From: Aurantiacibacter sediminis
Lineage (GTDB): Bacteria; Pseudomonadota; Alphaproteobacteria; Sphingomonadales; Sphingomonadaceae
Assembly (NCBI RefSeq): GCF_016019885.1
Contig: NZ_JAEANY010000003.1
Coordinates: forward strand, 124,001 to 188,000
Length of the DNA: 64,000 nt
Direction: 5' to 3'
The translations under genes and the position numbers were made by a program. The notes beneath the pieces are model-generated. The model worked only from the letters and a program-made list of their open reading frames with translations. It had not been told where the DNA came from and searched no databases. Shown piece by piece: positions 12,590 through 14,780 of this stretch (positions are counted from its first letter, which is position 1; the number at the start of each line of letters is the position of its first letter).

Positions 12590-13363
12590 TCAGGCGTCTG
12601 CCTTCGGCGCTTCTTCAGCAGCGGCTTCTGCCGGCGGCGTGTCCATGGCACCGATATCGGCACCCGAGTCCACAACGCCTTCGCCCTTGCCGCTCATCGC
12701 AGCCTGAGCGATCGCATCGCAATACAGGCGGACAGCGCGCGAAGCATCGTCATTGCCGGGGATCGGGAAAGCGATGCCTTCCGGATCGACATTGGTGTCC
12801 AGCACGGCGACGACAGGGATGCCAAGCACGTTGGCTTCCTTGATCGCGAGATCTTCCTTATTGGCGTCAATCACGAACATCACGTCCGGAACGCCGCCCA
12901 TGTCGCGGATGCCGCCGAGCGAAAGCTCCAGCTTGTCCTTCTTGCGGGTCAGCTGCAGGACTTCCTTCTTGGTGAGAAGGCTGGTGTCGCCCGAAAGCGT
13001 TTCTTCCAGCGACTTGAGTTCGCGGATCGAGCCCGAGATCGTCTTCCAGTTGGTGAGCATGCCGCCCAGCCAGCGGTGGTTAACGAAGTGCTGGCCGCAC
13101 GAACGCGCTGCCTGAGCGATCGGCTCCTGCGCCTGGCGCTTGGTGCCGACGAACAGGACCTTGCCGCCTGCGCGGGCCGTCTGCTGCACGAAATCGAGAG
13201 CGCGCGCAAACATCGGCACGGTCTGCGACAGGTCAATGATGTGAACGCCGTTGCGGTCGCCGAAGATATACGGCTTCATCCGCGGGTTCCAGCGGTGGGT
13301 CTGGTGGCCGAAATGTGCGCCGGCCTCGATCAATTGCTGCATGGTGACGGTAGGAGCCGCCAT
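12590..13363 (-). CDS. rpsB: 30S ribosomal protein S2
   Basis: 257-residue S2: [38 protein letters not shown] (seen in consecutive family blocks), [15 protein letters not shown] and [20 protein letters not shown]. The C-terminal Ala/Glu-rich tail is common in Alphaproteobacteria. The roughly 150-base leader (13364-13520) can form stem-loops close to the start (for example GTTCC / GGAAC) and could carry S2 autoregulation, which I cannot test. Confidence 0.96.
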
Positions 13364-13595
13364 AGGTAAATTCCTTTCCGGTTGTTCCTCTGGAAAGCGG
13401 GGAACCGTCCTCGGCTTCAGTCAGCCGCGGATGGCACCGGTATGTATGCCTTCCATGTGAATTTGCCGATTTGGAACACCACGCGTTGATTCGCCGGTTT
13501 CCGCATCGACGGGCGCGCATTTAGCGATGCCTTGGCGCAAAATCCAGCACTATCTGCCCTGCGAGCCACCAAATCTTGTGCGCCGCGCACAATGA

Positions 13596-13643
13596 GAACA
13601 CAAGCGGAACAAAATGCTTGACGGGGCGGAACAGAGGTGGAAC
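13596..13643 (+). promoter_or_regulatory. Two tandem LexA-type boxes (GAAC-N7-GAAC)
   Basis: Box 1 at 13596-13610 (GAAC-ACAAGCG-GAAC) and box 2 at 13629-13643 (GAAC-AGAGGTG-GAAC), 33 bases apart, about three helix turns. This is the reverse complement of the alphaproteobacterial LexA consensus GTTC-N7-GTTC. A -35-like TTGACG at 13618-13623 places box 2 across the -35 to -10 spacer, as in SOS promoters. A related GGAACAAATG at 13669 has no partner half-site. The nearest downstream start is the small ORF at 13721. Confidence 0.7.
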
Positions 13644-13720
13644 AAATGCTGCATCAAAGCGGGAAACGGGAACAAATGTCCCATTTTGGCGCTTTGGCAG
13701 CACTACGAGGAATTACGGAT

Positions 13721-13930
13721 ATGACACTCGCAATCGCAATTTCGCTTTTCTTCGGCCTGGTGGCCGCAGTGTCGCTTGCGTCGTGTCATGCCTCCATTCG
13801 CGCTGCCCTGCGTCAGTTTCGGATGATCCGCGCAGAGCTTGCTACGATTGATCGCGCTCCGCAGACAGTGACCGTTCCACTTCGTCAACCGCAAGAGGCT
13901 TTCGCTCGGGCGCTGGCGTGTCCGGCCTAG
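13721..13930 (+). CDS. Small membrane protein, putatively SOS-controlled
   Basis: 69 residues: one transmembrane helix at about 3-20 (LAIAISLFFGLVAAVSLA) followed by a basic amphipathic stretch (SIRAALRQFRMIRAEL) and a short tail. I do not recognise the family. The ATG has a GAGGA ribosome site nine bases upstream, and two LexA-type boxes end 77 bases before it. Small single-pass SOS proteins that block division are known in Alphaproteobacteria (Caulobacter SidA), but no sequence link is claimed. The 3' end overlaps the convergent pssA by 89 bases, which is the main reason for doubt. Confidence 0.5.
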   Translation: MTLAIAISLFFGLVAAVSLASCHASIRAALRQFRMIRAELATIDRAPQTVTVPLRQPQEAFARALACPA

Positions 13931-14780
13931 GCGCCGATTTTGCACGGCGTGCGCGCTTTACCTTGCCATAGGCCATGATCGCCCAGGCGATGAGCGCGAG
14001 ATAGACAACGCCGATTGCAACCAGCGTCCACCACGTCTCGATCAACAAGGCCCCAACCAGCAGACCGGCAAGCGCGATGACCGCGAGTTTCATGCTGCCC
14101 GAGGGGCGCAGCGACTTCCAGCTCGGCGTCGCGACATTGGACACCATCATCAGCGCGACAAACATGAGCCACGGACCGACCAGCAGCGGATCGCGGTAGA
14201 TCGGCTCGTCGGTCGCCAGCCAGAGATAGATCGGCATAAAAGCAAAGCCCGCGCCCATCGGTGCAGGAACACCGGTAAGGAAGCCCGCCGATTTGTGCGG
14301 CTGGTCATCCACATCGATCTGCGCATTGAAGCGCGCCAGGCGCAGGGCGCAGCAAATCGCGTAGGCGAGCGCCGCCAGCCAGCCAAAGCGCGGCATTTCA
14401 ACTAAGGACCAGAGATAGAGCACTAGCGCGGGCGCAATGCCAAAGCTCGCCGAATCGGAAAGGCTGTCCAGCTCTGCGCCGAAGCGTGATTGCGCTTTCA
14501 ACAGGCGCGCCACGCGGCCATCCATCATATCGAGAATACCGGCGATGATCATGGCGAAAACCGCGCGGTCCCACTGGCCACCAACAGCGAACAGGATGCT
14601 CGTGAGGCCCGAGCACAGCGCAGCGGCCGTAATTGCATTGGGCAGCACTGCGCGCATGGAAAGGCCCTTGCCGCCTCGCGACCGGGTCACATGCTCATGC
14701 TCGCTCGCTTTGGGGCCCAGCCACGCAGGGCCCGGAGGCGCGGTATCGTCTTCTTCGTAATCGTTTTTTGGGGTATCCAT
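13842..14780 (-). CDS. pssA: CDP-diacylglycerol-serine O-phosphatidyltransferase
   Basis: 312-residue multi-pass enzyme of the CDP-alcohol phosphatidyltransferase family. The signature DG-x2-AR-x8-G-x3-D-x3-D is intact (MDGRVARLLKAQSRFG then AELDSLSD, about residues 88-110). It makes phosphatidylserine from CDP-diacylglycerol and serine in the inner membrane. The first 40 residues are an acidic, poorly conserved cytoplasmic extension and the last 40 are basic. Its start overlaps the psd stop by one base (TAATG), so psd and pssA are co-transcribed and work in sequence. Confidence 0.94.
   Translation of the reverse strand: MDTPKNDYEEDDTAPPGPAWLGPKASEHEHVTRSRGGKGLSMRAVLPNAITAAALCSGLTSILFAVGGQWDRAVFAMIIAGILDMMDGRVARLLKAQSRFGAELDSLSDSASFGIAPALVLYLWSLVEMPRFGWLAALAYAICCALRLARFNAQIDVDDQPHKSAGFLTGVPAPMGAGFAFMPIYLWLATDEPIYRDPLLVGPWLMFVALMMVSNVATPSWKSLRPSGSMKLAVIALAGLLVGALLIETWWTLVAIGVVYLALIAWAIMAYGKVKRARRAKSAPRPDTPAPERKPLAVDEVERSLSAERDQS

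Follow-up and report, generated by a model that had tools for sequence, protein, structure and literature searches.

A small membrane protein family behind LexA-type boxes and overlapping pssA in sphingomonads, a candidate division brake upon DNA damage

A small membrane protein gene behind two LexA-type boxes in Aurantiacibacter sediminis belongs to a family with a shared promoter design, a hydrophobic helix, and an overlap with pssA, which extends from this one gene of the window (the whole stretch of 64,000 nucleotides analyzed here) to most genera of the GTDB family Sphingomonadaceae. We regard the gene as a strong candidate for a brake, so far undescribed, that acts upon DNA damage. By analogy with known inhibitors, we propose, with somewhat less than even confidence, that it encodes a LexA-repressed small bitopic protein of the inner membrane, induced by the SOS response and most likely halting cell division.

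The genome holding the window comprises 2.67 Mb in 14 contigs, and Aurantiacibacter is placed in the Erythrobacteraceae by the NCBI taxonomy. An earlier note on this DNA had reported two GAAC-N7-GAAC boxes around TTGACG, and this held to the letter: both boxes are exact, lie on one strand (+), and are 33 bases apart from start to start. Box 1 (GAACACAAGCGGAAC, 13596..13610, + strand) lies upstream of the presumed -35 element TTGACG (13618..13623, +), of which TTGAC is kept in relatives and which stands between the two boxes. Box 2 (GAACAGAGGTGGAAC, 13629..13643, +) falls in the spacer between this element and the presumed -10, AACAAA (13641..13646, +), a weak hexamer assigned solely by its spacing, 17 bases past TTGACG; in a promoter consensus scan of 13400-14100, no site matched sigma-70 at both hexamers. 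There follow an imperfect leader hairpin (13655..13696, +; 20-nt arms, 75% complementary), which is not general in the family, and the likely ribosome-binding site GAGGA (13707..13711, +), read from the sequence 9 bases ahead of the ATG. The small membrane protein gene of 69 codons (13721..13930, +) starts at ATG 13721, its stop ends at 13930, and the distance of 77 bases from box 2 to the ATG is as previously claimed. On its left lies the divergent rpsB (12590..13363, - strand) and on its right a convergent pssA-like gene (13842..14780, -; TIGR00473 at 104.5 bits, just below the 107-bit cut-off), followed by psd. The 3' end of the pssA-like gene covers the last 89 bases of the small gene, from codon 41 onward. 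The statement that no DNA repair gene is adjacent also agrees with our scan of the neighbors, which are tsf, rpsB, pssA, psd, and a RamB-like regulator.

The same motif, as GAAC/GTTC-N7, stands before recA, lexA, and uvrA in the window genome, so that the box can be regarded as the LexA-type site of this genome, as had been suggested. It also stands before genes for a ribonucleotide reductase, an MmcB-like protein, and a member of TIGR03916 (putative DNA modification/repair radical SAM proteins), and before an ORF that resembles ImuA only weakly, with a score below cut-off. The 15-mer of box 1 is even repeated exactly ahead of the ribonucleotide reductase gene (L005; G000:C6, 159992-160006). 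Upstream of recA, the reversed form was found at 26 of the 30 loci read, out of 58 genomes with a RecA match, and the forward form at none of the 30. Moreover, GTTCN7GTTC is the LexA motif published for Caulobacter (PMC12700426). Since the motif is shared with recA and lexA and agrees with the published one, we infer with high confidence that the small gene is very probably under LexA control.

The number of boxes would not by itself have singled out this locus. The 64-kb window holds two matches, not above chance, for a shuffle mean of 1.49 and at least two matches in 42 of 100 shuffles; the whole genome holds 65 sites, compared with 54 for the backward control, and most genome-wide matches are thus due to chance. 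Nineteen ORFs near genome-wide box sites were chosen for a Pfam scan. Several of them fall outside DNA repair, in the families RhuM, NepR, SRP54, HD, patatin, and winged helix; five belong to no family, and one had only a weak match. At L021 (G000:C7, 36821-36846), two overlapping boxes with a common half-site lie near an ORF of 325 codons that matches a winged-helix family. At L072 (G000:C7, 607080-607094), the box GAACAGAAGTGGAAC lies 10 bp ahead of a patatin-like ORF of family TIGR03607, a possible further LexA target judging from this arrangement.

At the window gene, chance boxes are ruled out by conservation. The window protein was found in 31 of 40 genomes of the genus (E <= 0.001), and the following counts concern 30 loci, i.e., those of the 31 positive genomes with DNA. 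TTGAC is followed 2 to 8 bases later by an exact box at all 30 loci, at least two exact boxes lie within 170 bp of the start at 28 and at least three at 10, and the reversed form is found at none. All 30 genes are located between rpsB and pssA/psd. A lack of the ORF and the boxes in close relatives had been named beforehand as what would refute the proposal; both were kept at 30/30 genus loci. Beyond the genus, up to ~1 kb ahead of rpsB was read in 94 genomes from 93 genera of the GTDB family, one per genus and all with rpsB, the stretches L264 and L274 ending at contig ends. Exact GAAC-N7-GAAC occurs within 700 bp of rpsB in 70 of these 94 representatives, compared with 1 for the reversed form and at most 9 for any half-site spacing other than N7 (0 to 15); TTGAC stands directly ahead of the box in 61/94. 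Where ~97% of Caulobacter SOS promoters hold one box (PMC12700426), two or more are the rule at the genus loci, yet 56 of the 70 representatives carry a single one.

Behind the box, a small ORF with a single hydrophobic transmembrane helix at its N terminus was found in all 70 representatives. This helix was demanded by the ORF search, and a control in other families was therefore needed: when the search was run at fixed positions ahead of rpsB in other families (28 genomes), a helix ORF occurred at 5 of 55 positions, and none of these ended in AA. A reverse-strand control gave a helix-like ORF in 114 of 210 cases, 19 of the 114 ending in AA, but this control is not clean because pssA itself encodes a membrane protein. 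Among the 24 representatives without an exact box, four have a helix ORF, with a one-mismatch box in L213, L232, and L245 and no box in L249. The whole genomes of the remaining 20 were searched for TTGAC-N2-7-GAAC-N7-GAAC, which was found in 18, with a small helix-plus-tail ORF behind it in 15. These 15 further genes, which keep the promoter, the helix, and the tail, lie beyond the stretch read ahead of rpsB or on another contig, at varying distances from rpsB (only ~1.2 kb for L360), and two of them (G051 and G060) come from genomes whose stretch met a contig end. Two of the 20 genomes have no such promoter, and three have the promoter without a full-length gene behind it, with short frames only at L352 and L366. 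Altogether, the gene is present in some form in 89 of the 94 representatives (70 + 4 + 15).

Outside the family, an exact box lay 700 bp or less from rpsB at 1 of 28 loci of the class (L156), and no helix ORF followed it, the flank of locus L151 being limited to ~530 bp; within the order, none of 7 loci of other families had an exact box. Profile searches recovered fewer members (20/199 and 53/296, or 134/298 at a laxer E value with doubtful hits) because the protein changes fast. The promoter rule finds members even where the divergence of the protein defeats profiles. Some candidates were not retained: L103 and L104, judged false, sit inside ORFs of ~600 codons; L140 has an inexact box, with neither rpsB nor pssA found in its stretch; and L108/L126 of genome G092, which also has the syntenic copy L242, has no box. 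The box-less L126 (G092:C2, 1070781-1070984) is thus a second small membrane ORF in a genome with a syntenic copy, and a reversed DnaA-like box, TTGTGGATAA, lies upstream of it.

The small ORF is almost certainly a real protein. Over the first 40 codons, at least half of the substitutions fall at third codon positions in nine pairs taken from members of the genus, and synonymous codons exceed the others in each of the nine, although the pairs are not all independent. The window protein has a hydrophobic helix near residues 3-21, a basic tail, and the C terminus ACPA; family members measure 50 to 111 residues. Over the 70 proteins, the 20 residues past the helix hold 213 Lys/Arg and the residues ahead of it none, a zero partly built in because the ATG nearest the helix was taken as the start while 32 of the 70 have an in-frame ATG upstream. 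By the positive-inside rule, the Lys/Arg-rich tail would be placed inside, and a membrane insertion with the N terminus out and the C terminus in is likely, if a little less so given how the choice of starts colors the charge count.

That this is a one-helix small membrane protein outside any known family, as the earlier note had it, was borne out by the helix call and by scans of family libraries. None of 30 members matched Pfam, NCBIfam, PHROGs, or PADLOC at E <= 0.01, a single NCBIfam match lying far below its cut-off, and a profile of the members had no match among PDB sequences at E <= 0.1; none of these profile comparisons pointed to a known inhibitor. Among the papers listed on LexA or SOS in sphingomonads and relatives or on SOS membrane inhibitors, none names the gene in its title or the beginning of its abstract, although it may figure as an unnamed locus in an expression table. 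In Sphingopyxis granuli, lexA, recA, and imuABdnaE2 are described as induced together, and the available text of that induction study makes no mention of a small membrane gene (PMC6472365); nothing on it was found in the available text of PMC13384398 either.

The second conserved trait of the locus is its overlap with pssA. Of the 85 genes (70 + 15 further), 83 have a convergent pssA (82) or psd (1) as neighbor; in L283 and L349, neither was found in the stretch, which spans 3 kb for L349. The overlap with the 3' end of pssA or psd concerns 81 of the 85 genes, by 13 to 424 bases, and 78 of these 81 overlaps are in one relative frame. The two genes that have a neighbor without overlapping it both end in AA. 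The last five residues of the 70 proteins read most often Leu (41), Arg (40), Ala (47), Ala (64), and Ala (68), and an -AA ending is found in 63/70 representatives (54/58 once 12 already examined genomes are removed), in 13 of the 15 genes from the re-searched genomes, and in 15 of the 30 genus members, the window protein ending instead in CPA. In most members, this ending lies antisense to the PssA motif [IV][KR]R[QR]R, which forces the last Ala and biases the other end residues. For this reason, the background of 4.4% for -AA (316 long ORFs) is not a fair comparison, and codon choices silent in PssA provide a better test.

Such choices are strongly skewed. Opposite residue -2, pssA uses CGG for Arg in 61 of 64 cases. 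In the parts of these pssA genes that lie beyond the overlap, CGG makes up 35% of CGN codons, or 46% when a C follows (binomial 3e-17 relative to the 46%, uncorrected for relatedness); CGC at this place would yield Gly where a C follows. The neighboring Arg codon, at the stop of the small gene, is AGG in 42 of 42 cases, compared with 69 of 1,020 Arg codons in matched pssA parts, a baseline that partly includes the motif itself, and a stop at this place presupposes an A in first position. The CGG excess at the following Arg is not significant (12/23, p 0.06). From these PssA-silent choices, the small frame appears to be selected to end in Ala-Ala-stop, although a DNA-level signal between the convergent genes may be another source of the skew. 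Seen from pssA, the skewed codon choice lies in the C-terminal Arg/Lys motif opposite the end of the small gene (78 loci), and the two overlapping genes appear, from their sequences, to constrain each other.

A C-terminal Ala-Ala is described as the key element of the ssrA degron in Escherichia coli (PMC7652416). Within the genus, the tmRNA tags recovered from 8 genomes (12 of 20 loci run) end in ALAIAA (7) or ALAVAA (1). In the members ending in -AA, a degron could well be present, at a little under an even chance judging from the sequences, an estimate slightly lowered by the position of the ending antisense to pssA.

We propose the following sequence of events. In undamaged cells, LexA bound to the boxes over the promoter would keep the gene off. 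Upon DNA damage, RecA would trigger LexA cleavage, resulting in the expression of the small gene. The protein would then enter the inner membrane with its N terminus outside and its C terminus inside, the basic tail keeping the latter in the cytoplasm, and its single helix would bind to a partner in the membrane, for which the septal FtsW/FtsI/FtsN complex is the likeliest candidate. Division would be held until repair is done; in members ending in -AA, a ClpXP-type protease may then clear the protein, allowing division to resume. An inhibitor role is plausible by analogy, the functional class being suggested by the precedent of SidA, DidA, SosA, and YneA and not by homology. Division as the target process comes close to an even chance, slightly lowered because the gene stays with pssA.

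The link to PssA is the main rival to division arrest. A LexA-controlled membrane protein could instead tune another process in repair, foremost phospholipid synthesis by PssA/Psd, or else a membrane protease or transporter, and we consider this less likely. It accounts for the convergent pssA or psd beside nearly every gene, including the pssA beside 14 of the 15 genes that were not near rpsB in the first survey. However, the overlap makes the two genes hard to part, so that their constant company need not mean a shared function. Moreover, psd is present and pssA not recognizable in the stretches read at L106, L107, and L110, and L349 has neither.

The leaders provide a further trait, shared by part of the family. 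TTWTNCACA is the DnaA-box consensus, and it occurs between the first box and the ATG in 23 of 70 representatives (17/58 without the 12 already examined genomes), e.g., in L220 (G047), L238, L221, and L261, often with near copies close by. With 25 hits in 6,746 leader bases compared with 1 in 47,714 surrounding bases, the enrichment of DnaA-box-like motifs in these leaders is strong. It does not apply to the window: the motif is found in none of the 30 genus members, nor in any of 30 recA upstream regions (200 bp each). A fuller version of the division checkpoint would have the protein read two replication signals, LexA and, in a subset of genera that leaves out that of the window, DnaA, and then be removed by a cytoplasmic AAA+ protease via an ssrA-like peptide encoded antisense in pssA; this combination seems improbable as a whole. 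Regarding RNA structure, the leader of the window gene folds at -28.9 kcal/mol (z -3.35, the lowest z of 66 leaders), its hairpin sitting just ahead of the ribosome-binding site. A conserved RNA leader was ruled out for the family, the mean z of the 66 leaders being -0.42 compared with -0.54 for 65 controls.

The strong hairpin of the window leader could limit translation, as would suit a membrane toxin induced by SOS, reducing the membrane potential and bringing about dormancy in the manner of TisB or DinQ, and the protein is indeed small, hydrophobic, and encoded behind a LexA-type box. Its long basic tail and the generally unstructured leaders of the family nevertheless make a toxin a rather remote prospect. 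Still less probable is that transcription itself matters, PssA being lowered by convergent transcription that SOS induces and that runs into the 3' end of pssA: the overlaps of 13 to 424 bases would permit it, but the frame is under selection outside the overlap and, judging from pssA codon choice, inside it as well. As for EcfG-type promoters, they read GGAAC-N16/17-CGTT, and GAAC is thus part of their GGAAC; such a promoter was set aside by eye in the window sequence, where no CGTT stands at the required spacing. Finally, that the boxes serve a different regulator recognizing the same half-sites, GAAC being shared with EcfG-type promoters, or that the ORF is a conserved antisense shadow of pssA, its end lying antisense to a conserved PssA motif, is very improbable, given the specificity of N7 (70/94 versus at most 9) and the same spacing at recA and lexA for the former, and, for the latter, a promoter, a helix, and the first 40 codons that lie outside the overlap in the window, third-position substitutions within those codons, and a pssA codon choice that follows the small frame.

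Division arrest by a LexA-repressed membrane protein thus remains our preferred reading. To our knowledge, the division stop that follows DNA damage is largely undescribed in alphaproteobacteria other than Caulobacter, and we know of no SOS membrane inhibitor that is linked to DnaA, that shares its codons with a lipid synthesis gene, or whose removal takes place from the cytoplasmic side. The family supplies a candidate division-brake gene in 89 of the 94 representatives of the sphingomonad/erythrobacter family. Its overlap with pssA, its -AA ending, and the DnaA-like motifs render three points testable: the removal of a membrane checkpoint protein, a DnaA input, and the company of pssA.

Among known systems, TisB (PMC11575346) and DinQ (PMC3567139) are likewise described as small SOS-linked membrane peptides, but the members of the new family are longer, with a basic tail and without general leader structure. 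Like proteins with an ssrA-like -AA C-degron, most members (63/70) end in AA, and the genus tmRNA tags end in -IAA or -VAA; unlike in these proteins, the ending lies antisense to a PssA motif, and the window member ends in CPA. SidA and DidA are described as small single-helix inhibitors in Caulobacter (PMC4211646). SidA of Caulobacter crescentus is also alphaproteobacterial, LexA controlled, and a very small inner-membrane protein (PMC4211646, PMC12700426), with 29 residues versus 50 to 111 in the new family, a comparison made by description only. DidA, with 71 residues, is alike in size and single helix, but is reported to be induced by DriD independently of SOS (PMC4211646), whereas the new family lies behind a LexA-type box. 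In Firmicutes, YneA and SosA are SOS-induced division inhibitors that likewise have one helix (PMC6851548, PMC13396833); YneA is reported to bind FtsW via this helix, FtsW being proposed as a common SOS target (PMC13396833), and recovery from the YneA checkpoint involves proteolysis (PMC6051672). YneA carries a LysM domain past its helix, whereas no Pfam family is matched by the 30 members scanned here. SosA is described as poorly conserved at a fixed chromosomal place, with its extreme C terminus proposed as a turnover signal (PMC6851548). The C-terminal part of YneA and SosA is extracellular according to these reports and is cleared by CtpA-type proteases (PMC6851548, PMC6051672), whereas that of the new family is predicted to lie inside the cell.
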